This document shows, in pieces, positions 2,144 through 46,568 of a DNA stretch of 64,000 nucleotides; position 1 is the stretch's first letter; the number at the start of each line of letters is the position of its first letter. The stretch comes from Fusobacterium varium (GTDB lineage: Bacteria > Fusobacteriota > Fusobacteriia > Fusobacteriales > Fusobacteriaceae): contig LR134390.1 of the NCBI GenBank assembly GCA_900637705.1, positions 1,798,001-1,862,000 on the forward strand, given 5' to 3'. The position numbers and the translations under genes are program-made. The notes under the pieces were generated by a model. The model was not told the DNA's origin. It did not search any database and was given only the letters and a program-made list of their open reading frames with translations.

Positions 2144-4122
2144 ATGTACAAAAAAATTGGAATTTTAGCTTTGATTTTAAGTTCAGCTGTCTATGCAGAA
2201 GAAATTCAAAGCACAAAACTTAATGAAAGTGTTATCTCTACTGAAAACTTTGAAACAAGTGTAAGAGATACTGCAGCAAATATTTCTATTGTTACAGCAC
2301 AGGAAATTGAAAAAACTGGAGCTAAAGATCTCGTAGATGCCCTTAAAAATGTTCCTGGTATCTTTGTTAAAAATTATGCTGGTGGAATAAAATTTGATAT
2401 TAGAGGATTAAATTCCATGTATAGTGACAGAAATGCTCTAATTACACTTGATGGAGTTCCTGTTACATCTACACAGGTTTCAAATATACCAATAGAAACA
2501 ATTGAAAGAATTGAAGTAATCCCTGGTGGTGGTGGAATCCTTTATGGAGATAAAGCTATTGGAGGTATAGTTAATATTATCAGTAAGTCAGCTATTGACA
2601 AAAAAAATTATGGAACTGTTTATTCTCATTTTGGAAGTAACAGTGAACATAAGATAGGTTTTAACTATGGAACTAAACTCACACAAAGATTTATTACTGA
2701 AGTAGGATATACAGACTATGATTCTGATGGTTGGAGAAGAGGAGAAAATTTTGATAAAAAAGAAGGACGTTTTAAAGCTAAATATTTGCTAGATAATGGA
2801 GAGATAGAATTTAAATATAATCATTCAGATAACAAAACATATAAAGGAATAGCTGTTCCTAGCTATATCCTTGATAATGATAGAAGAAATCCTGGAAGTC
2901 TTTCTAAAAGCAAAAACAAAAGTAATGATTACTATTTAAAATGGAAGCAAAATATATCTGAAGATACAGAGTTTTTGATCTATGGAAACTATTATGAAAA
3001 TAAAAAATGGCTATTTAATAAAACTAAAGATTCTTTTTACAGAGATGGAGATGAAGTAAGAAAATATGTAAAAGCTCAAATTAAACATACATATCTTCCT
3101 GATAGTTATTTTATAGCTGGTATAGACATACTTAAAGATGAAGTAAAACCTTATGACACTTCTTCTAAATTTGATTCTTCTCTTGGAAGATATATAAAAA
3201 GTGGAGATTCCACTAAAGATGGTTTCGGTATATTTGCATTGAATAAATATTCAGTTGGAAAATTCCAATTTACTCAGGGAATAAGATATGATTATGCAGA
3301 TTATGAATTTTATTGGAGAAATGCTTCTCTTAATGCTCCTGATAAAAGGGGTACAAAAGATAATGCTAAGTATAATGATTACTCTTTTGAATTAAGTGCC
3401 AATTATCTATATTCTGAAACTGGTTCTACATATCTTACATATACAAGAGCTTTTAGAACACCAACAGCTAGTGAGATTTACTATACTCGTAATTCAGAAA
3501 GACTTGATCCTCAAGTCCAAGATACTATTGAATTAGGTGTAAAAGATTTTTTGCTAGCACTTACATATCAGCTTCTACATTCTACAAGATGACTCATGAT
3601 GAAATATATTCAACTATTCCTCCTGAATTTACAGGAATGGTAAATTATAATATAGGAAATAGTGAAAGAATCGGAGCTGAAATTTATGCAGAACACTATA
3701 TTGGAGATTTAACTTTAAAATCTTCAATAACTTATCTGCATCATAAAGTTATAAGTGGAAAATACAGTGGAAGTGAAATCCCAAGTGTTCCTAACTGGAA
3801 GGTAACTTTTGGAGCTGGATATGACTTCAACAGCAATTTTTCTGTAGGGGCAGATGCTATTTATGCTGGAAATACATATGATCTAGATGATATAGCTAAT
3901 GAGAGAAAAGAAGATACTGGAGAATATTTCACAGTAGATGTATTTTCACAATATAAATTTAATAATGGAATATCTCTCACATTCAGAATCAATAATATAT
4001 TTGATGAAAAATATAATGAATATGCTGGGTTCTGGGACGACAGTATATATCATATAGATCAAAGACATTATTATCCAGCTATTGGAAGGACATACACTGC
4101 TGGTATAAGCTATTCATTCTAA
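2144..4122 (+). pseudogene. TonB-dependent outer-membrane receptor, BtuB-like, copy 1 (one frameshift)
   Basis: With one base restored this is a 659-residue TonB receptor: signal peptide MYKKIGILALILSSAVYA, plug domain (about residues 40-155, with NVPGIF and the ERIEVIPGGG...LYGDKAIGGIVNI block), then a beta-barrel ending GRTYTAGISYSF with a C-terminal Phe. The frame breaks at the T6 run 3547-3552: adding one T turns KDFLLALTYQ-stop into KDFFASTYISASTFYKMTHDE and joins 2144-3592 to 3589-4122. A cobalamin riboswitch controls it, so the substrate is probably a cobalamin or cobinamide. GGAGG precedes the ATG. The break may be a real mutation, slippage-based phase variation, or a base-calling error. 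Confidence 0.88.
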
Positions 4123-5346: not shown

Positions 5347-7375
5347 ATGTATAAAAAAATTGGAATTTTAGCATTATTTTTAAGTTCATCTCTGTATGCA
5401 AATGAAGTTGAAAAAAAAGAGGAATTTGCTGTAAAATTAAACGAATCAACTATTACATCAGAAAGATATGAGGAAACTCCTGTAATAGAAACAGCTAAAA
5501 ATGTTACTGTTATTACAAATAAAGAAATTGAAAAAGAGGATATAAGAATATAGAAGAAGCTCTGGTAAATGTTCCTGGTTTATCTTTCTCAGGTGGAAAT
5601 TTATCAATGAGAGGACAAGTTCCTAGTATGGGAAATAAACATTTAGTTGTATTGGTTGATGGAATTCCACAAAATGGTATTGATAACAGATCATTTGATT
5701 TAGATTTTATTCCTGTTGAGCAAATAGAAAAAATAGAGGTAGTTCCTGCTGGTGGAGCCATTATGTATGGTGGTAATGCTACATCTGGTGTTATCAATAT
5801 TATTACAAAAAATTATGAAAATAGAAAATATTGGGGAAATGCAGGACTTCAACTAGGTTCATTTAATGAAAGAAAGTACAAATTTAATTATGGAGTAAAT
5901 CTAACAGAAAATTTTTCATTAGATGCTAAATATATCAATACAGATAAAGATGGGTATAGAAATTATACTAAAAAAGAATCAGAATTTGGAGAAATAGGAG
6001 TTAAGTATAAATTAAAAGATGGAAATGTAGGTTTTAAATATATCCGTAATGAAAGAAAATCAAATGGTTCTGCTTATCTCACTAAAGTCCAATATGATGA
6101 AGACAGAAGACAAAATAATCCTGACTATAAAGAAAAAACTGCTCATGATACACAAGATAAATATATACTTGAATTTAATAAAAATTTATCTAATAAATTA
6201 TCCTTTTCAGCTGTTACTGAATATAGAGAAAGAGAGTATACCTACTCTCAACCTAAAACGGATAAATATTCATCATACCATAGTAGAATAAAAATACTGA
6301 TTCTATATATACAAACGCACAGTTAAAATATAATTATAAAGAAAAAAGTAATTTAATATTTGGTGGAGATTATTCTAAAGCTAAAGTCAAGGAAAAAGGA
6401 TATGGCGTTTCTAAAAATATAATTTATCAAAAATCATACACAGAAACTGATTATGAAGCTATTGCTGGATATATCCTTAATAAGTATAGTTATAATAATT
6501 TTATTTTTACTCAAGGAATTAGATTAGAAAGAAATAAATTTGATGAAGATGAAACTACTTATGAGGCTAATAAAACTTTTAAGAGTAAGAAAAATATTAG
6601 TGACTCCAATACAAATACTAATTATGAATTAGCAGTGAACTATATGTTTTCTGAAGATACTTCTGGATATATCAGTTGGAATAGAGTATATCGTTCGCCT
6701 AATTTAACTGAATATACAGGCTGGAAAATAGATAAAGGTACTGGAGTGACTGCTTCAAGAGATTCACAAGAAGTTGATACTTTTGAAATTGGAATTAAAT
6801 CTCTTATAAATAATATTTATTTATCTGGAGCTTTATTCTATATAAAAGGAAATAGAGAAATAATGTATGATTCTTACAGAGATGAAATAATAGATAAATC
6901 TGAAAGTGGAAGTTATTATAATCTTGATGGAAAAACTGAAAGAATAGGAATTGAATTTGCTAGTGAACAATATTTTGATAAATTAACATTAAGAGAAAAC
7001 TTTACATACATGCATAATGAAATTGTAGATGGTCCATATAAGGGAAATGATATTCCTGGTGTAAGTAATGTAATATTCGGATTAGGAGCTACCTACGAAA
7101 TAACTTCTCAATTTACTTTTAATATTGAATCAAACTACCATGGCAAAGCTTATTTAATAAACGACTACTACAATAAAGTTCCCAAAGCAAATAGCTACAT
7201 GGTTACAAATATTTCTGCTAAATATAATTTTGAAAATGGAATAGCTATATCAGCTGGAATAGATAATATTTTCAATGAAATTTATTGTGATTACATTACT
7301 TATGCTGGTAAGAAAATTAATTATTCTCCATCTCCAGAAAGAACATATTATGTAAGTGCAGAGTATAAATTTTAA
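5347..7375 (+). pseudogene. TonB-dependent outer-membrane receptor, BtuB-like, copy 2 (two frameshifts)
   Basis: With two bases restored it is a 676-residue receptor with the same leader (MYKKIGILAL) and plug signatures as copy 1 (EIEK..., NVPG, EKIEVVPAGGAIMYGG, SGVINIITK) and a barrel ending TYYVSAEYKF. The first break is near 5547-5548: one extra A converts DIRI-stop to DIRNIEEALVNVPG. The second is in the A5 run 6290-6294: one extra A gives SRIKNTDSIYTNAQLKYNY. The three open pieces are 5347-5553, 5607-6326 and 6635-7375. The barrel differs widely from copy 1, so the two receptors probably differ in ligand preference among corrinoids. Confidence 0.86.
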
Positions 7376-33293: not shown

Positions 33294-33563
33294 TTATTTC
33301 ATTATATTTTTTGATGCTCTAAACTTTACTGTTTTTCTAGGATAAATTTTCATTAATTCCCTAGTTGATGGATTACTTACCACTTTTGGCTTTCTTTTTG
33401 CTACTTCAAATACACCTCTGTTGACAAATGTAACTGAATTATATTTTTGCAGAGCTTCTTGTAGAGTCTGTATAAATATTTCTATTTCTTTTAATGCTTC
33501 TCTTCTCAGTACTTCTTCTTGACTTATTGTACTATATATCTTTGCCAGCTCTCTCTTATTCAT
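33294..33563 (-). CDS. HU/IHF-like protein, short form (module 1)
   Basis: An 89-residue HU-like protein: helical N-terminus (MNKRELAKIY ... EALQKY), then a VTFVNRGVFEVAKRKPKVVSNPSTRELMKIYPRKTVKFRASK region, which is the HU beta-arm and closing helix, with the NPST-R-E motif of HU/IHF. Its ATG overlaps the end of the 97-residue HU-like gene by 8 nt, so the two are made in equal amounts and probably form a heterodimer that bends DNA. Confidence 0.88.
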   Translation of the reverse strand: MNKRELAKIYSTISQEEVLRREALKEIEIFIQTLQEALQKYNSVTFVNRGVFEVAKRKPKVVSNPSTRELMKIYPRKTVKFRASKNIMK

Positions 33564-33849
33564 CTACATCACCACTATTAATTGCATCTTGCAGTCCTGC
33601 CCCTGTTCTGAATTTTATCTTTTTCTTTGCTCCAATTATTACTGCTTCATTCGTTTTAGGTAGCACTACTTTTCTTGATTTTACCTCTTTTTTCTCAAAT
33701 ACTCCCCAATTCTTTAATGATACTTTTCCATCTTCATTTAAAGCCTTTAGTAAGGTATCCCAAAATAAATCTACTTTTCCTTTTGCTTCTTTATAGCTTC
33801 TTGAGAGATTTCTTCTCTTATAAAACTTTATAAATTCTTTTTCTGTCAT
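33556..33849 (-). CDS. HU/IHF-like protein, long form (module 1)
   Basis: A 97-residue HU-like protein, distinct from the short form: MTEKEFIKFYKRRN start, WDTLLKALNEDGKVSLKNWGVFEKKEV, an arm with KTNEAVIIGAKKKIKFRTG, and a C-terminal DAINSGDVDE. The basic arm is shorter and less standard than in true HU. It begins 18 nt after the autotransporter stop with AGGAG before the ATG, so it is expected to be on the same transcript as the autotransporter. Confidence 0.86.
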   Translation of the reverse strand: MTEKEFIKFYKRRNLSRSYKEAKGKVDLFWDTLLKALNEDGKVSLKNWGVFEKKEVKSRKVVLPKTNEAVIIGAKKKIKFRTGAGLQDAINSGDVDE

Positions 33850-33867: not shown

Positions 33868-36800
33868 TTAGAATTTGTACCCTATTCCTACTCCTACTAT
33901 CCATTCACCCTTTGTTCTATTTTTTCCACTTCCGTTGTGTGAATCTCTTTCCACATTGTAGCTTCCTTTTACATCAAAAAGAACTCCATTTTCTAATTCC
34001 AAAGCATACTTAGCATTAAGTCCTATACTGTGTTCATTCTTGTGAGCTACTAAAATATCAAAGTCGCTTCCACCTTTAAATCTTCCTGTGATATTTTCTT
34101 CATCTGCCCCAGTAAGAAGTCTTGTGTAGCTTACCCCTGCTGAAAGTGTACTCTTTCCTTTTTCATGTGGTATTACTTTTTTAAGGTCTACTCCCACTTT
34201 TGCTGCTGTGTAGTCAAATGATTTTGAATCTGTTTCTATTGCAAGAGTTTTGTTCCCTTCATCTGCGCTATCCTGCTTGATATATGTATATGACAATGTT
34301 CCATATGGTTCTAAGAACAAGTTTTCTCCTATGTTATGAGAATATCTTCCATTTAGGTAAATATCATATATCATATCATTATAATTATCTGAATAACTTC
34401 TTGTTTCTGTTATTCCTTTTCCTGCTGCAAATCTATCTGCATCATAATCTCCATACTGCAGCCCTAATCCTCCTGTTACTTTTAGATTTCCTACATACTT
34501 TTTAGCATATGCTCCCATATACAGCGCATCTCCATCTACTTTTGAACCATTAGACAACTCAGATTTAAGCTTATTTCCTCCAATTACTACTCCATAAGTC
34601 AATGTATCTGATACTCCGTATTCTCCAAGCATATATGCTCCTGTTATTTTAGTATCTGCGTCCATATCTATACTTCCTATATCATATGTGTAGTATCCTT
34701 TTCCATAATATGTATCTTTTGTTCCTCCATCTACATGAGTTAATCCACCCATTATCAATCATTTATTTAGCTCTGGTTTAAATTGGCTTTCTACTGCTAT
34801 ATCTCTAAACATTCCCACTGACTTTCTTGAAAGTTCACTTGAATATGAATATGGATTTCCTGCATAGATGTCATTTAAGTATCCTAAGAATGTTGAAAGT
34901 TTCTTATTAGTATCTACATCAAATTCCTTCACTCCATCTACATCTCTCATACTTTGATATATTTTATCCAATTCATCATAATTAATTGCTCCAGCTGGTG
35001 ACTTTGGCAAACTTGTTTTTGTAGTTATTAATACTTCTGTATTGCTTGTTTTTTTAACTGAATGAAGTAGTGAAGTACTATCTAAAGTAAATTTATCTCC
35101 ATATATAATCTCCTCATTTTCTATACCATATAGTCCATTTCCAAGGTTCATTCCAATCTTTATTGTACTTCCCTCTCCTACTCCATTAAGAGCTAAAAGA
35201 AGTTTTCCTCCATCTGATTCTATTATTCCACTAGTGTTCCCAGTTGAAAGAGCATGGGAATTATTATTTGTTCCATCTATTCTTAAGATAAGGTTTCCAT
35301 CTTTTCCTATTGTTATCTTGTCTACACCTGTTACTTTTAAATTATCCATTACTCCATTAGCATCAATAGTCTTCTCATATAGAGTAACATTTGTATTTAT
35401 ATTCATATTTTTAAAATTAGATATATTATGCATAATATTTATTTTATCACTATTTAAAGTTCTTGCTGTTGTTGAATTAAAATTAAGAGTACTGTTAGTT
35501 CCAATTCCACCATCAAGCTTTCCATTAATTACTGCTCCATTTTCTATTTCAAGTTCATCATCTCCAGCTCCCATAGCTACATCTCCATTGAGTACTGTTC
35601 CACTTCCTACTATAAGTTTATCATCTCCAGCTCCCATATCTATATTTCCATTAACTATAGTATTTTGAGTTGCAGATTTTTCCTCTCCATTATTATCTTT
35701 ATATTTAATTTCTCCTGACTGAAGTATTAAAGTATCTCCATTATTACTTCCTGATATAGCTATACCTTTAGTATTAGGATCACTCTCATCTATCCCACCA
35801 TTTACTGTTGTTCCTGATAAAGTCAGTTGGTTATTACCTCCTGTATCTCCAAATACAACTGCTGTTCCATAAGCATTGATTATTGAACCTGTGACATTGT
35901 TATTTTCTCCAGTAACCTTATATGTGTTTTTCAAAGCATTTAATATATGGTTTTCTTTATCTCCAGAAAATGAATTACTTTTATCATCATTTTTTCCTGT
36001 TACATTTTCTATTGTTACCTTTCTTTCTCCCGTGATATTTTTTTCATTATCATAGAATGATATATCCTGATCTCCTGTAGCTCCTGCAGTTATATCACCT
36101 TGATTTTTACCTTCATTTTTTATTATAAGTCCATAGTTGTTACTAATATTTATTCCATCATTTACATCTTGGTCAGTTCCATTTACAAGTATTCCATAGT
36201 TATTTACTTCCTTTATAGTTCCAACATTACTCATTAGAGTATCATTTTTTATAGCACTATCTTTCCCATAAATAACTCCTGTATTTGTTATATTTCCTAT
36301 TTCAACTGAATTATATATTCCATAACCTGATTTATCACCAGTTCTATTAGAAAATATTTTTCCACTATTATCTAATCTTGTTATCGTTCCTTCATTATAA
36401 TTATATACTCCAGAAGCAATCCCCGTAGTATTTGTACCAGATATTATTCCATTATTATTCAATTTGCTTATTATTCCTTCATTATATACTCCGAAACCAT
36501 CATCCATATTATCAGCAACACTAAGTATTGTTCCACTATTATTCAGCTCTATTATTTTAGCCTTATTTATATTAGTTATTCCATGAACCTTGGTGCTACT
36601 TCCTTTAATAAAGACTGTTCCTCTATTATTTAACTCTGTTATTATTCCACCATTATTATATATTCCAAAAGTATCTGTCTGAGAATCAGTAGCATATATT
36701 GTTCCATTATTTATTAAATTTACTTTTGAGTTAATATCATTGTATATTCCATAAGCATTGGCACTAGCACCATGAGCAGATATTACTCCATTATTTATTA

Positions 36801-37119
36801 CCTCTATAGGAGTTGCTAATCCATAAAGTTTTATTTTTATTCCATAAGCTGTACCTGATTGACTTATACTAGAAATCTCTGTATTATTAGTATAAGTTTG
36901 ACCATCAAAAGTATTTTCTGAAAATCCATGAGTTTTACTATCATATTTTTTACCATTAAATTCTATTTCACTATCATTTACAGTTATAGTTAATGCTGTT
37001 TCATCTGTTCCCATTACTGCTGTACACGACAATAGAAATCCAATTACTGCTCCTGTTGTTATATTTCTGCTCCTCTTTTTGTTGCTATTCTTTACTACCT
37101 TCATAACTTTTTCAATCAT
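33868..37119 (-). pseudogene. Type V autotransporter 1 with in-frame TGA
   Basis: A 1083-codon autotransporter: long signal with a basic start and hydrophobic core (NITTGAVIGFLLSCTAVMG), a passenger of short beta-helix repeats of the GIYN...NNGTI type, and a C-terminal 12-strand beta-barrel ending GVGIGYKF. At 34761-34759 a TGA interrupts the frame where both neighbouring autotransporters have TGG (NKWLIMGGLTH), which separates passenger and barrel into 34759-37119 and 33868-34758. The change is one G-to-A. GGAGG precedes the ATG at 37119. If real, the passenger would be made without an anchor; the barrel half has only a TTG start. Confidence 0.88.
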
Positions 37120-37242: not shown

Positions 37243-37419
37243 GTTCTCTTTTATCTATAAAAGCGAACTTTTAGACACTCTAACCTCCCAATTTTTAACA
37301 CCCCATTTTTTGGACCCTGTTTTCCCCCTAATTTTTTCATCTTGACTTTTTTAAATTTAAAGAGTATAATAATAGCATCAATTTCAAAAAAGTGTTCGTC
37401 TTTATAGATAAAAGAGAAC
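37243..37419. promoter_or_regulatory. Putative invertible promoter segment, module 1 (OFF orientation)
   Basis: Two 26-bp inverted repeats, 37243-37268 (GTTCTCTTTTATCTATAAA..) and 37394-37419 (GTTCGTCTTTATAGATAAA..), agree at 24 of 26 positions when one is reversed. They flank 125 bp holding TTGACT (37342-37347), a 17-bp spacer and TATAAT (37365-37370) on the plus strand, which points away from autotransporter 1. Inversion would turn the promoter toward the gene. In the present orientation the transcript meets repeat R followed by five T, an intrinsic terminator about 45 nt after the start. On the other side the repeat has no T run. Confidence 0.72.
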
Positions 37420-37589: not shown

Positions 37590-37628
37590 AAAAAAAGACC
37601 AAAGGAAATTTAATTCTTTTGGTCTTTT
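37590..37628 (-). terminator. Terminator of autotransporter module 2
   Basis: Minus strand AAAAGACCAAA / TTTGGTCTTTTTT stem after the HU pair. Confidence 0.8.
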
Positions 37629-37647: not shown

Positions 37648-37917
37648 TTATTCCATTATACTTTTTGATGCTCTAAACTTTACTGTTCTTCTAGGATAAA
37701 TTTTCATCAATTCTCTAGTTGATGGATTCGATATTATTCTTGGTTCTTTTTTTAGTACTTCAAAAGTTCCTTTTTTCATAAATTTTACCTTTCCACTTAT
37801 CACCAAAGCTTCCTGCATAGTTTTTAGAAATATATCTATTTCCTCCACTGCTTTTTTTATTGATATTTCACTTTTACTTGCTTTGATATATAATTTAGCC
37901 AATTCCATCTTATTCAT
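37648..37917 (-). CDS. HU/IHF-like protein, short form (module 2)
   Basis: An 89-residue paralogue of the module 1 short form: MNKMELAKLYIKASK start and identical closing NPSTRELMKIYPR(R/K)TVKFRASK. Overlaps the long-form gene by 8 nt, as in module 1. The arm differs between modules (TFEVLKKEPRIISNPST here), so the pairs may prefer different DNA sites. Confidence 0.88.
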   Translation of the reverse strand: MNKMELAKLYIKASKSEISIKKAVEEIDIFLKTMQEALVISGKVKFMKKGTFEVLKKEPRIISNPSTRELMKIYPRRTVKFRASKSIME

Positions 37918-38203
37918 CTACATCAGCTCCATTTATCACATTTCTCAATCCTTTCCCTGCTTTGAATCTTATCTTTTCTTTTGCATCGATTATTATTATT
38001 TTATCCATCTTGGGTATCATTACTCTTCTTGCTTTTACTTCTTTTTTCTCAAATGTTCCCCAATTCTTTAATACTACTTTTTCATCTTCATCTAAAGCTT
38101 TTAGTATTGTATCCCAAAATAATTCCACTTTTTCTTTTGCTTCCTTAACATTCTTTAAATGATTTCTATTTCTATAATATTTTATAAATTCTTTTTCTGT
38201 CAT
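37910..38203 (-). CDS. HU/IHF-like protein, long form (module 2)
   Basis: A 97-residue paralogue of the module 1 long form (WDTILKALDEDEKVVLKNWGTFEKKEV, ending NGADVDE). It starts 19 nt after the autotransporter 2 stop. Confidence 0.86.
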   Translation of the reverse strand: MTEKEFIKYYRNRNHLKNVKEAKEKVELFWDTILKALDEDEKVVLKNWGTFEKKEVKARRVMIPKMDKIIIIDAKEKIRFKAGKGLRNVINGADVDE

Positions 38204-38222: not shown

Positions 38223-41200
38223 TTAGAATTTGTATCCTATTCCTGCTCCTACTATCCATTCACCTTTGTTTCTGTTTTTTCCACTTCCTTTGTATGAATC
38301 TCTTTCCACATTATAGCTCCCTTTTACATCAAATAGTATTCCACTTTCAAGTTCAAGTGCGTACTTAGCATTTAATCCTATACTATGTTCATTTTTATGA
38401 GCTACTAAAATATCAAAATCGCTTGCATTTTCTCCTTTAAATCTTCCTGTAATATGTTTTTCATCTGCACCAGTAAGAAGTCTTGTGTAACTTACCCCTG
38501 CTGACAGTGTGCTTTTTCCTTTTTCATGTGGTATTACTTTCTTAAGGTCTACTCCCACTTTTGCTGCTATATAGTCAAATGATTTTGAATCTGTTTCTAT
38601 AGCTAATACTTTACTTCCTTCATCTGCTCCCTTCTGCTTGATATATGTATATGATAATGTTCCATATGGTTCTAAGAATATGTTATCTCCCATTGGATTA
38701 GAATATCTTCCATTCAAATAGATATCATATGCCATATCTGAATATTTATCATTGTAGCTATGTCCTCCTATTGTTGCTCTATTAGCATCATATTCTGAAT
38801 ATTGAATTCCTCCTCCTGCTTTCAGTGTAAGGTTTCCTCTGTAGTTTTCTGCAAAAGCACCTATATATCCACTGTTTCCTTTTACTTTAGACATTGACAG
38901 TTTAGCTTCGCTTTTGTTTCCACCTATTACAGTACCTAAAGTTGTATTTTCAGAGTATCCATACTTTGCTAATATATATGCTCCTTTAAGTTTCATATCT
39001 GTATCTACATCTGTTGTTCCTGTATCAAAGCCATGATAATTCTTTCCATAATATGTATCTTTTGTTCCTCCATCTCTATGAGTCAATCCACCCATTACCA
39101 GCCACTTATTTAAGTTTGGTCTAAACTGATTTTCTGTTGCTATATCTCTGAACATTCCTGCTGATCTTCTTGAAAGTTCACTTGAAAATGAGTATGGACT
39201 TGCTGTATATATTTTATTTAAATATGATAGAAGTATAGCCATCTGTTTTTTATCTGTTACTGATGTATAGTCTTCTCCTGCTACAGTTAAAGTTAAAATA
39301 TCTTTTAACCCATTAAAATTTTCTTCTTTACTTGAATATATCCCCTTATATATTTCATTTAATTTTATGTATTTTGGTTCATCTCTTGATAGATTTTTGT
39401 TTATTTCAAAAATATCAATTTCCCATTCAATTTTTATATCTCCTTTTTCTCCTTTTCCACCATTTTCTTCTGACTCTTTTAAAATTACAGCTTTATCCAA
39501 TATGGAATTAGTTTTAACAAAAAGATTTTCATTTAAAGTTATTCCCTCCATAGCAATTATGGCATCTTTTCTCAATCCATTTGTTACAAGATTAAATACT
39601 CCTACATTGTATTTTCCATTCTCTTCCTCTTTAATTTCTGTTTTACCATCTGGCAATTGGCTAATATCTCCATTGATTATAAGGTCTATATTTCCAAATA
39701 GAGCATGTCCTTCATATTTTCCATTATCACTTAATTTCCGGCTATCTATTCTTAAATTGAGAACTCCACCTGCTTTTATATTTATTTCATTAACTCCTGA
39801 TACTTTTAAATCTGTTTCTTTTCCATCTGCTCCAATAGTTTTTTCAAATAAAGTGACATTAGTGTCTTCTCCTACATTTATATTTTCAAAATTAGATATA
39901 TTATGCATGATTCTTATTTCTTGACTGTCTGCTGGATTTGACTTAGTAACTGAACTTATTCCAAAATTAAGAGTATCTTTAGAATCGCTATCTCCACCAT
40001 CAAGAGTTCCATTAATTATTGTTCCATCTCCAATTGTAAGAGTATCAGCTCCAGCTCCCATATTTATATTTCCGTTGATTATGGTATTTTGAATTCCTTT
40101 GCTGCCATCTGTATATTCAACAGTTCCTGACTGTAGTATTAGAGTATCTCCATTACCACTTCCTGATATAGCTATACCATTAGTACTATCTTCTATTCCC
40201 CCATTTACTACTGTTCCTGATAAAGTTAGTTGGTTATTATCTCCTACATCTCCAAATACAACTGCTGTTCCATAGGCATTGATTATTGAACCTGCTACTT
40301 CATCATTTAAACCAGTAACTTTATATGTATTTGTTAGAGCATTTAATATAGAATCATTTTCATTTCCAGTGAATGACTCATCTCCAGTAGTATCAATCTG
40401 ATTTTTTATTGTCATATTTCTTGTTCCACTAACCTTTCCATCAGTATTATATGTTACTGGTATATTTACATCTTTTTCTTCTTTACTTCCAACAACTATC
40501 TCTTTTCCATTTTTTATTATAAGTCCATAGTTATCACTAATAGTTAGTCCATCAACTTCTGAACTCCCTTTTGTTGCAAGTATTCCATAGTTATTTACTG
40601 TACCTATAGCTCCACCTGTTTCATTCTTTATAGCATTAGTTTTCCCATAAATAACTCCTGTATTAGTTAAATCTTTTATTTCTTCTTTATTATATATTCC
40701 ATAAACACTATCACTATTACTACTGCCATTACCAGATATCAGCCCAGCATTAATTATAGTTTTTATCATATTTATATTAAATATTCCATAACTATTTGTG
40801 CTATTGGTATTACTAGATATTATTCCAGTATTAATCAATTTACCTATTCCATTATTTCCGTTACTATTTACTATTCCACTGCCAGTTATTCCACTACCAA
40901 ATATTAAACCATTATTATTTAAACTTGTTATTTCTTTATTTTCATTATATATTCCAGATCCAGAACTAGTATTGCCTCCACCAGATATTATCCCTATATT
41001 AGTTATAGTCTTAGTTATAGCTCCTTCGCTTTCATTATATATTCCATAACTATTATTAAGTCTATTACCTTTACTAGAATTAGCATTACCAAATATTAGT
41101 CCACTATTATCTAAATTTGTTATTGTCCCACTATTCATTATCCCAGAGTTAGAACTATTCCTAGAACTACTACTAGAACTACTACCAGATATTATTCCAC

Positions 41201-42035
41201 TATTAGTTAAATTTGTTATTGTTCCACTATTCACTATTCCACTACTATAGTATTGCATACTCTCTTCTGCAGTATTAATACCTAATATCAGTCCACTATT
41301 AACTAACTTTGTTATTTCTCCACCTCCATTTTGTATTCCATAGCTGTAATTTATACTCATATTACTATTATTATTCCCAGATATTAGTCCACTATTAGTT
41401 AAATTTGTTATTGTTCCACCTTTATTTTGTATTCCACAACCATAATTATAAGTAAAATTCTGAGAACTAATACTAATATTACCAAATATTAACCCACTAT
41501 TAGTTAAATTTGTTATTGTCCCATTTTCATTATATATTCCATAACCATAGCTCCGAGCCCCCATATTAGATACAACATTATAAATGTTGCCTAATATTAT
41601 TCCATTATTGCTTAATTTAGCTATTTTCTCACTTTTCTCATTATGTATTCCATAACCACTATAACCACTCTGTCCACCATCATATTCTTTACTGCCAGAT
41701 ATTATTATCCCATTATTTATAAATTCAAAACTTTTTGAATTCAATTCCAGTTTTAATCCATAAACATCATTTCCAGATAATGTTATGTTATTTGTATAAA
41801 CATCTTTGCTCCAAGTATTTCCAGCATCTTCATATGGATTTTTTTGTGAATCAGGTTCACTATTATCAGTACTAAATTTAATTCCATTATTATCTTTTAT
41901 CCATAAGTAATTACCCTCTGTTACTCCCATTACTGCTGTACATGACAATAGAAATACAATTACTGTACCTATTGTTATATTTCTTCCTCTTCTTTTGTTG
42001 CTGCTTTTTACTGCCTTCATAATTTTTTCAATCAT
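38223..42035 (-). CDS. Type V autotransporter 2
   Basis: A 1270-residue intact autotransporter. Signal region MIEKIMKAVKSSNKRRGRNITIGTV then a hydrophobic core to about residue 40; passenger of about 25 imperfect repeats of the kind GYGIYNE..ITNLTNSGLISG (beta-helix rungs) to about residue 480, then a glycine-rich beta-helix with DTLILQSG and GAGADTLTIGDGT blocks, linker, and a C-terminal barrel of about 300 residues ending GAGIGYKF. The start is the ATG at 42035 with GGAGG six bases upstream; the longer frame from 42056 reads through that ribosome site. The barrel is nearly identical to those of the other two copies while the passengers differ. Confidence 0.94.
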   Translation of the reverse strand: MIEKIMKAVKSSNKRRGRNITIGTVIVFLLSCTAVMGVTEGNYLWIKDNNGIKFSTDNSEPDSQKNPYEDAGNTWSKDVYTNNITLSGNDVYGLKLELNSKSFEFINNGIIISGSKEYDGGQSGYSGYGIHNEKSEKIAKLSNNGIILGNIYNVVSNMGARSYGYGIYNENGTITNLTNSGLIFGNISISSQNFTYNYGCGIQNKGGTITNLTNSGLISGNNNSNMSINYSYGIQNGGGEITKLVNSGLILGINTAEESMQYYSSGIVNSGTITNLTNSGIISGSSSSSSSRNSSNSGIMNSGTITNLDNSGLIFGNANSSKGNRLNNSYGIYNESEGAITKTITNIGIISGGGNTSSGSGIYNENKEITSLNNNGLIFGSGITGSGIVNSNGNNGIGKLINTGIISSNTNSTNSYGIFNINMIKTIINAGLISGNGSSNSDSVYGIYNKEEIKDLTNTGVIYGKTNAIKNETGGAIGTVNNYGILATKGSSEVDGLTISDNYGLIIKNGKEIVVGSKEEKDVNIPVTYNTDGKVSGTRNMTIKNQIDTTGDESFTGNENDSILNALTNTYKVTGLNDEVAGSIINAYGTAVVFGDVGDNNQLTLSGTVVNGGIEDSTNGIAISGSGNGDTLILQSGTVEYTDGSKGIQNTIINGNINMGAGADTLTIGDGTIINGTLDGGDSDSKDTLNFGISSVTKSNPADSQEIRIMHNISNFENINVGEDTNVTLFEKTIGADGKETDLKVSGVNEINIKAGGVLNLRIDSRKLSDNGKYEGHALFGNIDLIINGDISQLPDGKTEIKEEENGKYNVGVFNLVTNGLRKDAIIAMEGITLNENLFVKTNSILDKAVILKESEENGGKGEKGDIKIEWEIDIFEINKNLSRDEPKYIKLNEIYKGIYSSKEENFNGLKDILTLTVAGEDYTSVTDKKQMAILLSYLNKIYTASPYSFSSELSRRSAGMFRDIATENQFRPNLNKWLVMGGLTHRDGGTKDTYYGKNYHGFDTGTTDVDTDMKLKGAYILAKYGYSENTTLGTVIGGNKSEAKLSMSKVKGNSGYIGAFAENYRGNLTLKAGGGIQYSEYDANRATIGGHSYNDKYSDMAYDIYLNGRYSNPMGDNIFLEPYGTLSYTYIKQKGADEGSKVLAIETDSKSFDYIAAKVGVDLKKVIPHEKGKSTLSAGVSYTRLLTGADEKHITGRFKGENASDFDILVAHKNEHSIGLNAKYALELESGILFDVKGSYNVERDSYKGSGKNRNKGEWIVGAGIGYKF

Positions 42036-42156
42036 AAATTTCCTCCACAGTGACATTTTAATATTTTTGGTCCAATTTTCTCCTTTGATTTTCTGCTCTA
42101 AAATCTAAATTTAAATTTGATTTTTTCGGTATAAATTAAGAGAGCAACTAAATACT

Positions 42157-42182
42157 GTTCTCTTTTATCTATAAAAGCGAAC
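42157..42182. repeat. Single 26-bp site before autotransporter 2 (invertible-promoter scar)
   Basis: One copy of the 26-bp repeat. Its left side is identical to repeat L of module 1 and its right flank (TTTTTGCATTC then TTAGATTCAAAGC) matches the flank of module 1 repeat R. The intervening 125 bp and promoter are absent, as if deleted between the two repeats. Module 2 therefore has no promoter of this kind. Confidence 0.72.
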
Positions 42183-42438: not shown

Positions 42439-45400
42439 TTAGAACTTATACCCCAGTCCTGCTCCTACTATCCATTCACCTTTGTTTCTGTTTTTTCCAC
42501 TTTCATTATGTGAATCTCTTTCAAATGAATAGCTTCCTTTTACATCAAACAGAATTCCACTTTCAAGTTCAAGTGCGTACTTAGCATTTAATCCTATACT
42601 GTGTTTATTTTTATGAGCTACCAAAATATCAAAGTCGCTTCCACCTTTAAATCTTCCTGTGATGTTTTCTTCATCTGCCCCAGTAAGAAGTCTTGTATAG
42701 CTCACTCCTGCTGACAGTGTACTCTTTCCTTTTTCATTTGGTATTACTTTCTTAATGTCTACTCCCACTTTAGCTGCTGTATAGTCAAATGATTTTGAAT
42801 CTGTTTCTATTGCAAGAACCTTGCTTCCTTCATCTGCGCTATCCTGCTTGATATATGTATATGACAGTGTTCCATATGGCTCTAAGAATAAATTATTTCC
42901 AATATTATGAGAATATCTTCCATTTAGGTAGATATCATATGTCATATCTGAATATTTCTCACTGTAACTGTGTCCTCCTAATGTTGCTCTATTAGCATCA
43001 TATTCAGAATATTGAATTCCTGCTCCAGCTTTCAGTGTAAGGTTTCCTCTGTAGTTTTCTGCAAAAGTTCCTACATATCCACTGTTTCCTTTTACTTTTG
43101 ACATTGGAAGTTTAGCTTCACTTTTATTTCCTCCTACTGTTACTCCTAATGATACATTTTCTGAATATCCATATTTACCCAGGGCGTAAGCTCCAGTAAG
43201 CTTCATATCCACATCTACATCAGCTGTACCTGTATCAAAGCCATGATAATTTTTTCCATAATATGTATCTTTAGTTCCTCCATCTCTATGAGTTAGTCCA
43301 CCCATTATCAACCATTTATTCATATCTGGTCTAAATTGATTTTCTGTCACTATATCTCTAAACATTCCAGCTGATTTTCTTGAAAGCTCACTTGAAAATG
43401 AGTATGGAGTTCTTGTATAGATATTATTTAAGTAAGATAAAAGTGTAGCTAGCTGTTCTTTATCTGTTACTGATGTATAATCTCCTCCTGCTGCATTTAA
43501 AGTTAAAATATCTTTTAATGCATTAAAATTTTCCCTTGCACTTGAATGTACTCCTTTATATATTTCATTTAATTTTATATATTTTTGCTCATCTCTTGGT
43601 ATTTCTTTGTTTATTACAAAAATATCTTCATTGTCTTCAATCTTTATATCTCCTACTTGCTCATTTCCACTTGGACTTTTTATAATCGTAGCTCTATCCA
43701 ATATGGAATTAGTTTTAACAAAAAGATTTTCTTTTAAAGTTATTCCGTCCATAGCAATTATGGCATTTATTCCTAGCCCATTTGTTATAAGGTTAAATAC
43801 TCCTACCTTGTATTTTTCACCTTCTGTTTCTTTAATTTCTGTTTTCCCATCTGGCAACTGACTAATATCTCCATTGATTATAAGACTAGTATTTTTATTA
43901 AATAAGGCATGTCCTTCATATCTTCCACCATTCAATTTCTGGCTGTCTATTCTTAAATTAAGAACTCCACCTGCTTTTATATCTATCTCTTTCACTCCTG
44001 AAACTTCTAGAGCTGTTTCTTTTCCATCTGCACCAATAGTTTTTTCAAACAAAGTGACATTTGTATTTTCTCCTACATTTATATTTTCAAAATTAGTTAT
44101 ATTGTGCATAATATTTATTCCTTGACTTTCACCTGGAATTGACTTAGCACCTGAACTTACTCCAAAATTAAGAGTATCTTCAGAATCGCTATCTCCACCA
44201 TCAAGAATTCCATTAATTATTGTGCCATCTCCAATTGTAAGGGTATCAGCTCCAGCTCCCATATTTATATTTCCATTGACTACAGTATTTTGAATACCTT
44301 GATTACTAACTATAAACTGAAGTATTAAAGTATCTCCATTGTCACTTCCTAATATAGCTGCCACTTTAGTACCAGGATTAGAATCACTCTCATCTATTCC
44401 ACCATTTACTATTGTTCCTGATAAAGTCAGCTCTTTATCTCCTGTATCTCCAAATACAACTGCTGTTCCATAAGCATTAATTACTGAATTATTAAGTTCA
44501 TTATTTCCTTCTGAAACTTCCAAAGTATTTGTTATACCGTTTAATATATATCCTTTACTTGAAGAAATAGTTTCTGTTTGCTCTTCACCATTTGAATCAC
44601 TATATGTTAAAGTTCCATTTTCTAATTTTAAACTTTCAGTTCCTGTTATATTATCTTTACCATTTCCCGATGCTGCAGCATTGATTATTCTAGTTCCTGC
44701 ATCTTTATCAAAAGTTTGTCCAAATTTTCCATACTCTTTTTCTTCTGCTTTATATCCTCCTCCATCTACTGCTGTAAATATTAAACCTTTATTTAATATT
44801 TCATTTTCTTTTGGAGTTCCATCGACAATATCTAATCCATCAATTACCTTATTATTATTACCATCTCCATTTACAAGTATTCCATAATTACTTGATGGAG
44901 CTATAGTTCCATTACTTTTCTTTATAGCATTAGTTTTCCCATAAATAACTCCTACATTTGCTATATTTACCTTTCCTTTATCCTCACTATCATTATCTAT
45001 TCCATAACCCAAATCATTACCAGAACCACTTATTATTCCTTTATTTGCTATATTTCCCATTGTCCCCATATTATATATTCCATAACCCAAACCATTATTA
45101 TAACCAGTACCACTTATTATTCCTGCATTTGTTATATCTTCTATTGTAGCTTTATTATATATTCCAAAACCATAATTCCAACCAGTATTAGAAATACTAT
45201 TATTAGAAATACTATAACCAAAAACATTTATTATTCCTGTATTTGTTATATCTTCAATTGTACCTGAACTATTATATATTCCATAACCATTACCAATACT
45301 AGAATTAGAACTAGTCCCATTGCCAGAAACACTCATTATCCCTGTATTTGTTATATCTCCAATTGTACCTGATTTATTATATATTCCATAACTATAACCA

Positions 45401-46257
45401 GAGCTATAACCACCAGAGCTATAACCAGAACTATAAACACTTATTATTCCCTTATTTGTTATATTTCCCATTTTTTTCTCATTACTATCATTATATATTC
45501 CATAACCTTTACCATAATCACTAGCACCAAAACCACTTATTACTCCTGTATTTGTTATATCTCCAATTTTTTCTGAATTATATATTCCATAACCGGCATC
45601 AGTACCAGTACCACTTATTGTTCCTTTATTTTCTATATTTCCCATTGTACCTGAATTATATATTCCATAACCAGCATCAGTACCAGTACCACTTATTGTT
45701 CCTTTATTTTCTATATTTCCCATTGTACCTGAATTATATATTCCATAACCATAACCTTTATCATCACTTTTACCAGTACCATTTATCAGTCCTACATTTT
45801 CTATATTTCCCATTGTACCTGTATTATATATTCCAAAACCATAACTAGAAATGTTACCACTCATTGTTCCTATTATTGAACCATTATTTACAAAATTCAC
45901 TCCAGTCAAGTTACCACTTAATCTAAGTCCATAACTTATATTATCGCCATTAGTATTTACCCCATTTTTTTCACTTGATAACAATGTCATATTGTTTGTA
46001 TAAGTTTTTTTAACTGTATCCCAATTATTATCGCTATATGGATTTGCTGTATTCCAATTTCCATTAGTACCATTTTCATCATTAGTATTTATTGTATTAA
46101 ATTGTATTGTATTATCCTTTTCTCTTATCCAAAGATAATCACCTGCCCCCATTACTACTGTACACAACAACAAAAATCCAATCACTACCCCTATCGTTAT
46201 GTTTCTTCCTCTTCTTTTGTTGCTGCTCTTTACTGCCTTTATAATCTTTTCAATCAT
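42439..46257 (-). CDS. Type V autotransporter 3
   Basis: A 1272-residue intact autotransporter, same plan as copy 2: signal region with NITIGVVIGFLLLCTVVMG, passenger rich in GYGIYNSGTMGNIENKG rungs to about residue 460, a beta-helix with GAGADTLTIGDGT, linker, and a barrel ending GAGLGYKF. Two consecutive 26-residue rungs are encoded by near-identical 78-bp units (45573-45650 and 45651-45728), so the passenger can change length by slippage or recombination. GGAGG-like CCTCC on the plus strand precedes the ATG at 46257. Confidence 0.94.
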   Translation of the reverse strand: MIEKIIKAVKSSNKRRGRNITIGVVIGFLLLCTVVMGAGDYLWIREKDNTIQFNTINTNDENGTNGNWNTANPYSDNNWDTVKKTYTNNMTLLSSEKNGVNTNGDNISYGLRLSGNLTGVNFVNNGSIIGTMSGNISSYGFGIYNTGTMGNIENVGLINGTGKSDDKGYGYGIYNSGTMGNIENKGTISGTGTDAGYGIYNSGTMGNIENKGTISGTGTDAGYGIYNSEKIGDITNTGVISGFGASDYGKGYGIYNDSNEKKMGNITNKGIISVYSSGYSSGGYSSGYSYGIYNKSGTIGDITNTGIMSVSGNGTSSNSSIGNGYGIYNSSGTIEDITNTGIINVFGYSISNNSISNTGWNYGFGIYNKATIEDITNAGIISGTGYNNGLGYGIYNMGTMGNIANKGIISGSGNDLGYGIDNDSEDKGKVNIANVGVIYGKTNAIKKSNGTIAPSSNYGILVNGDGNNNKVIDGLDIVDGTPKENEILNKGLIFTAVDGGGYKAEEKEYGKFGQTFDKDAGTRIINAAASGNGKDNITGTESLKLENGTLTYSDSNGEEQTETISSSKGYILNGITNTLEVSEGNNELNNSVINAYGTAVVFGDTGDKELTLSGTIVNGGIDESDSNPGTKVAAILGSDNGDTLILQFIVSNQGIQNTVVNGNINMGAGADTLTIGDGTIINGILDGGDSDSEDTLNFGVSSGAKSIPGESQGINIMHNITNFENINVGENTNVTLFEKTIGADGKETALEVSGVKEIDIKAGGVLNLRIDSQKLNGGRYEGHALFNKNTSLIINGDISQLPDGKTEIKETEGEKYKVGVFNLITNGLGINAIIAMDGITLKENLFVKTNSILDRATIIKSPSGNEQVGDIKIEDNEDIFVINKEIPRDEQKYIKLNEIYKGVHSSARENFNALKDILTLNAAGGDYTSVTDKEQLATLLSYLNNIYTRTPYSFSSELSRKSAGMFRDIVTENQFRPDMNKWLIMGGLTHRDGGTKDTYYGKNYHGFDTGTADVDVDMKLTGAYALGKYGYSENVSLGVTVGGNKSEAKLPMSKVKGNSGYVGTFAENYRGNLTLKAGAGIQYSEYDANRATLGGHSYSEKYSDMTYDIYLNGRYSHNIGNNLFLEPYGTLSYTYIKQDSADEGSKVLAIETDSKSFDYTAAKVGVDIKKVIPNEKGKSTLSAGVSYTRLLTGADEENITGRFKGGSDFDILVAHKNKHSIGLNAKYALELESGILFDVKGSYSFERDSHNESGKNRNKGEWIVGAGLGYKF
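45573..45728 (-). repeat. 78-bp tandem repeat in the passenger of autotransporter 3
   Basis: Two adjacent 78-bp units that differ at only one or two bases, each encoding one 26-residue GYGIYN...TGTDA rung. Flanking units are more diverged. Confidence 0.8.
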
Positions 46258-46391: not shown

Positions 46392-46568
46392 GTTCCCTTT
46401 TATACATAAAAGCGAACTTTGGGAGGGTCTAACCTCCCAATTTTTAATACCTCATTTTTTGGACCCCGTTCACCTCCCAAAACTTTTATGTTGACTTTTA
46501 CAAATTTAAAGAGTACAATGATAGGAAAAATATAGGGAAGGTGTTCGCCTTTATGTATAAACAAGAAC
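46392..46568. promoter_or_regulatory. Putative invertible promoter segment, module 3 (OFF orientation)
   Basis: Repeats at 46392-46417 (GTTCCCTTTTATACATAAA..) and 46543-46568 (GTTCGCCTTTATGTATAAA..), inverted to each other with about 22 of 26 matches and core TTTATACATAAA. They flank exactly 125 bp, as in module 1. Inside are TTGACT (46491-46496), 17-bp spacer and TACAAT (46514-46519) on the plus strand, away from autotransporter 3. Repeat R is followed by five T. Confidence 0.72.

Follow-up and report, generated by a model that had tools for sequence, protein, structure and literature searches.

Upstream of the gene for autotransporter 1, in the 64,000-nucleotide stretch of Fusobacterium varium DNA analysed here (the window), a promoter between two inverted repeats points away from the gene. 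This arrangement raises the question of whether the segment inverts and, if so, through what kind of enzyme.

The promoter segment and its neighbors

The gene-proximal repeat (37243..37268, core ATCTAT, found by repeat search and core covariation) and the gene-distal repeat (37394..37419, core ATAGAT, the reverse complement of ATCTAT) match at 24 of 26 positions (92% complementary), as first annotated, and enclose a 125-bp segment (37269..37393) defined by sequence comparison with other copies; sites and segments are given without strand. The segment carries a plus-strand promoter, TTGACT-17-TATAAT (37342..37370), that is conserved in divergent copies. The first-pass annotation called this promoter perfect, which is too strong for hexamers with 11 of 12 consensus positions, but its 17-bp spacer and its direction away from the autotransporter (OFF) stand. 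If the segment were flipped, transcription would start a computed ~166 nt upstream of the ATG at 37119, in agreement with the distance first proposed. Each 26-bp arm is itself near-palindromic, so that a site reads GTTCnnnTTT-6 bp core-AAAnnnGAAC. Inverted repeats around a short promoter-bearing segment are what is expected of a promoter inverton, and we favor, with a probability of about 0.9, the reading that 37243-37419 is such an element, on which a tyrosine recombinase would act across the 6-bp core. The initial proposal of an invertible promoter in the OFF state is strongly supported by 81 homologous pairs, by the covariation of the core and by the presence of promoters in most segments, and further by paralogous loci of a relative that show two natural inversions and by a recombinase gene in the genome that is a candidate for the enzyme. 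From these comparisons we infer that the element at this locus itself inverts and that its orientation affects expression. No recombinase gene adjoins it.

The presumed target lies on the minus strand, where a 786-aa passenger open reading frame (34759..37119) ends at an in-frame stop (34759-34761) that splits it from the beta-domain (33868..34758, Pfam PF03797), which continues in the same frame; given this stop, the gene as assembled probably does not function. Downstream follow two HU/IHF-like genes on the same strand, one of A type (33556..33849) and one of B type (33294..33563). A similar pair, A (37910..38203) and B (37648..37917), both minus strand and both Pfam PF00216, lies downstream of autotransporter 2 (38223..42056, minus strand, 1277 aa, PF03797). 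Autotransporter 3 (42439..46257, minus strand, 1272 aa, PF03797) is preceded by the second full element of the 64-kb window (46392-46568), with a proximal site at 46392..46417 (core ATACAT), a distal site at 46543..46568 (core ATGTAT) and a plus-strand promoter, TTGACT-17-TACAAT (46491..46519), that also points away from its gene (OFF).

Upstream of autotransporter 2 there is a single 26-bp site (42157..42182) with no promoter segment left. Its outer flanks are those of a full element, and it is probably what remains of a deleted one. An origin by recombination at the core was rejected, as the right half of this site is that of a proximal site, which is better explained by a deletion between GAACTTTT repeats. 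The single site also resembles an empty site, and together with the many similar copies it could suggest a MITE-like mobile element carried along with autotransporter cassettes, the inverted repeats being its ends and no regulatory inversion taking place. We consider this highly improbable: the elements keep a constant place upstream of genes, the single site is accommodated by the GAACTTTT deletion, and neither core covariation nor reversed inner segments, both described below, would be expected of it.

The first-pass annotation also saw an asymmetric design in which the repeat acts as a terminator in the present orientation. The distal-site repeat does not bear this out, forming a weak hairpin (about -5 kcal/mol) that the terminator scan did not call. 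That scan placed a clear intrinsic-terminator-like hairpin beyond the distal site, at 37593..37628 on the plus strand, which would end the OFF transcript of the element and would probably also terminate the HU operon when read from the opposite strand. TTTT follows the site on the OFF side in 32 of 51 elements and on the gene side in 18 of 51, and the asymmetry thus survives as a tendency but not as a strict design.

A site family with matched cores

When the 64-kb window was shuffled 100 times, the site pattern never matched. A strict site pattern has 50 matches in the genome to which the window belongs (3,302,398 bp, one contig) and 41, 42 and 12 in three relatives, and the reversed control pattern has none in the same four Fusobacterium genomes. 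Only these 4 of 98 Fusobacteriota genomes carry more than one site, the other 94 having at most one each. We compiled 81 paired elements over the four genomes, 24 of them in the window's own genome, with a site-to-site spacing of 141-231 bp overall, many copies having 151 bp. Of the 81 segments, 69 contain a strong promoter whose hexamers are 17 bp apart, against 4.5 after shuffling, and over 22 divergent clusters there is partial conservation of the spacer and of positions upstream. A phage or plasmid origin was considered and rejected, since phage and plasmid records gave no match and the lone IMG/VR match looks like chance. At the thresholds used, no similar inverted repeats were found near recombinase genes of other genera, nor in other Fusobacterium near HU genes or weak matches. 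In a 68-kb contig of another genome (G010 contig 3, locus L186), a different 26-bp palindromic repeat (ACTAACTCGACTATGGTCGACTTAGT) occurs three times, at 3702, 3906 and 4117 of the locus, with an HU gene nearby and recombinase genes at a distance of ~5 kb.

Among the 68 distinct pairs, the 6-bp core (positions 11-16) is identical between both sites in 67, as exact reverse complements, whereas shuffling of partners in 5000 trials gave a mean of 12.9 core matches and a maximum of 24. The copies share ancestry, and the 68 pairs are therefore not independent, so that the count overstates independence; despite this kinship there are 13 different cores, each matched on both sides. At most arm positions, pairwise agreement is little above the shuffled level. 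Tyrosine recombinases exchange strands over an overlap of 6-8 bp, which has to be identical in the two sites, and two arms around a 6-bp overlap that is the same in both sites is what we find. In our view, a matched core with variable arms is the mark of a tyrosine recombinase exchanging strands, and neither an operator nor a serine invertase would be predicted to leave it.

In the mechanism that we propose, a tyrosine recombinase would bind both sites at their palindromic GTTCnnnTTT/AAAnnnGAAC arms and exchange strands across the 6-bp cores, which would have to be identical in the two sites; since the two cores have opposite orientations, the 125-bp segment would be flipped. In the present state the promoter would fire away from the gene, and in the flipped state the autotransporter operon would be transcribed with a leader of ~166 nt.

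An inversion system of the Hin/Mpi type, in which a serine invertase crosses over at 2 bp, would have a certain appeal in that hix-type sites are 26-bp palindromes with a variable central dinucleotide, which the present sites resemble. The covariation, however, spans 6 bp and includes positions 11 and 16, and the only serine recombinase match in the genome, at 450 aa, belongs to the large type. With no small serine invertase found, this kind of switch was rejected, and we give it very little probability.

The sole pair with a clear core mismatch (ATACAT vs ATCTAT) is located in the same genome at C1:1564473-1564649 (sites at 1564473 and 1564624; 6974-7150 of locus L009). This pair is predicted to be locked and is perhaps a hybrid of neighboring elements in a tandem array.

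Orientation and targets of the probable switches

Two loci of a relative (G009) carry segments reversed with respect to their paralogs. At 958543 (L073) the flanks align forward with paralogous loci while the inner segment is reversed against six of them, the reversed alignments having 75-79% identity and E values down to 2e-25. At 3783353 (L112) the inner segment is reversed against three paralogs (L076, L080 and L081) and the flanks are 93-98% identical. These comparisons show that segments have inverted between sites in this lineage, as read from the alignments of paralogous loci of the relative rather than of 37243-37419.

Of 52 strong-promoter elements that face an open reading frame of more than 300 aa, about 46 face autotransporters, and 51 are OFF; about six of these 51 face polysaccharide-type or other genes and the rest autotransporters. 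L073 is the one strong-promoter autotransporter element in the ON orientation. In the window's own genome all strong-promoter autotransporter elements are OFF, a uniformity that a non-inverting element would also display. This observation, the near-palindromic form of each site and the 151-bp spacing that is constant in many copies would suit a reading in which the 26-mers are operators and a dimeric regulator binds both, looping or blocking the promoter with no inversion. Nevertheless, an operator would leave the central 6 bp free, and it is these that covary while the arms drift; the spacing varies from 141 to 231 bp, and inner segments are reversed between paralogs whose flanks are conserved. 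We therefore judge the operator reading very unlikely and retain the promoter inverton.

Elements in the ON orientation precede HU-like operons (one at 3056156 in the window's own genome, five in the relatives) and a Wzz-like gene (L116), and further targets include an O-acyltransferase-like gene and an outer-membrane-protein-like gene; apart from autotransporter and HU, the names given to targets denote resemblance in sequence rather than family assignment. The locus at 37243-37419 would then be one of ~24 switches in its genome, placed before autotransporter, polysaccharide-type and HU/IHF-like operons. With more than 80 such probable switches in the four genomes, mostly OFF, many surface proteins of these gut bacteria can probably be turned on and off at random. 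For F. varium Fv113-g1, a published study describes few autotransporters as highly expressed (PMC5720691).

Candidate enzymes, possible accessory factors and related systems

The recombinase probably acts in trans. Its identity we infer from gene content and neighborhood: there are nine tyrosine-recombinase matches in the genome, among which a 198-aa protein encoded at 358180-358773 (PF00589, without the N-terminal domain) is the best and most likely candidate for acting on these sites. Its orthologs at 75% identity or more occur in exactly the four site-rich genomes, and its copies adjoin giant autotransporters, HU pairs and plasmid autotransporters; against contigs of named genomes it found only a distant clostridial relative. 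A degenerate copy of its gene is present in the window's own genome at C1:1140660-1141195 (L194), near a FadA-like cluster, an HU pair and an autotransporter element. The genome search suggested by the first-pass annotation yielded a tyrosine candidate that tracks the site-rich genomes, and for Xer-like genes no linkage to elements was seen. It is quite possible, though less probable than the 198-aa protein, that the inverton is flipped by another enzyme, either a Xer-like host recombinase, of which several are present, or a second candidate, a 189-aa tyrosine recombinase (1408056-1408622) that likewise consists of a catalytic domain only and adjoins an HU gene. The 189-aa gene, however, occurs in most genomes of the genus, the majority of which lack sites, and so does not track the sites, and for the Xer-like genes the missing linkage argues against such a role.

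PF00216 genes number 48, 55, 56 and 58 in the four site-rich genomes versus 4-15 in the other eight; the genome of the window has 48, where most other Fusobacterium have 4. Many of its HU/IHF-like genes form A/B pairs inside operons behind switches, beside autotransporters. In a tree, the A proteins are for the most part separated from the B proteins, as heterodimer partners would be. We tentatively suggest, as a rather doubtful extension, that the pairs in switched operons are phase-variable accessory factors: an operon flipped ON would produce an IHF-like heterodimer of its own, which would then bias further inversion of its own or other switches by feedback or mutual exclusion. In the fim switch of E. 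coli, FimB and FimE, catalytic-domain-only recombinases of ~200 aa, act with IHF, an accessory protein that inversion requires. The present system is similar in the size and architecture of its candidate recombinase and in IHF-type proteins as possible accessory factors, but it differs in its sites and in having IHF-like gene pairs inside many switched operons.

The nearest known system is the ipuS autotransporter switch of E. coli, followed by the multi-target RecV and Mpi systems. At ipuS, which controls UpaE in uropathogenic E. coli, a promoter segment of a few hundred bp is inverted by tyrosine recombinases (PMC6083910), and as here promoter inversion controls an operon with an autotransporter, with OFF and ON states. 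That system has one element, 7-bp repeats and an adjacent recombinase gene (PMC6083910), whereas here a genome has ~24 elements, the arms of the 26-bp sites are palindromic and the candidate recombinase is encoded elsewhere. The RecV/Cdi switches of C. difficile likewise place several dispersed switches under a tyrosine recombinase in trans, but the seven switches have mostly unrelated repeats (PMC5903667), in contrast to the single family of sites here, with over 80 pairs spread across four genomes and variable cores that match within pairs. Mpi of Bacteroides fragilis is described as a master invertase for at least 13 invertible regions, many for surface structures, and is a serine recombinase acting on polysaccharide promoters (PMC5903667); here core covariation suggests the tyrosine type, and the targets are mainly autotransporters. 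Element number, covarying cores and linked HU/IHF-like pairs set the present family apart from known invertons. The earlier remark that no described inverton controlling a fusobacterial autotransporter was known agrees with the open-access literature, in which we found no Fusobacterium inverton, while subscription papers or large inverton surveys may list some.

If the reading is correct, a single family of sites would let gut Fusobacterium species of this clade phase-vary a very large set of autotransporters, with consequences for variable adhesin expression and strain heterogeneity. The family would also be a clear case in which to study how dozens of switches share one recombinase family with core sequences limiting cross-talk, and a further question that it poses is why each of these genomes has 48-58 HU/IHF-like genes. 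Should the A/B pairs take part as suggested, a network of feedback or mutual exclusion would span dozens of surface proteins.
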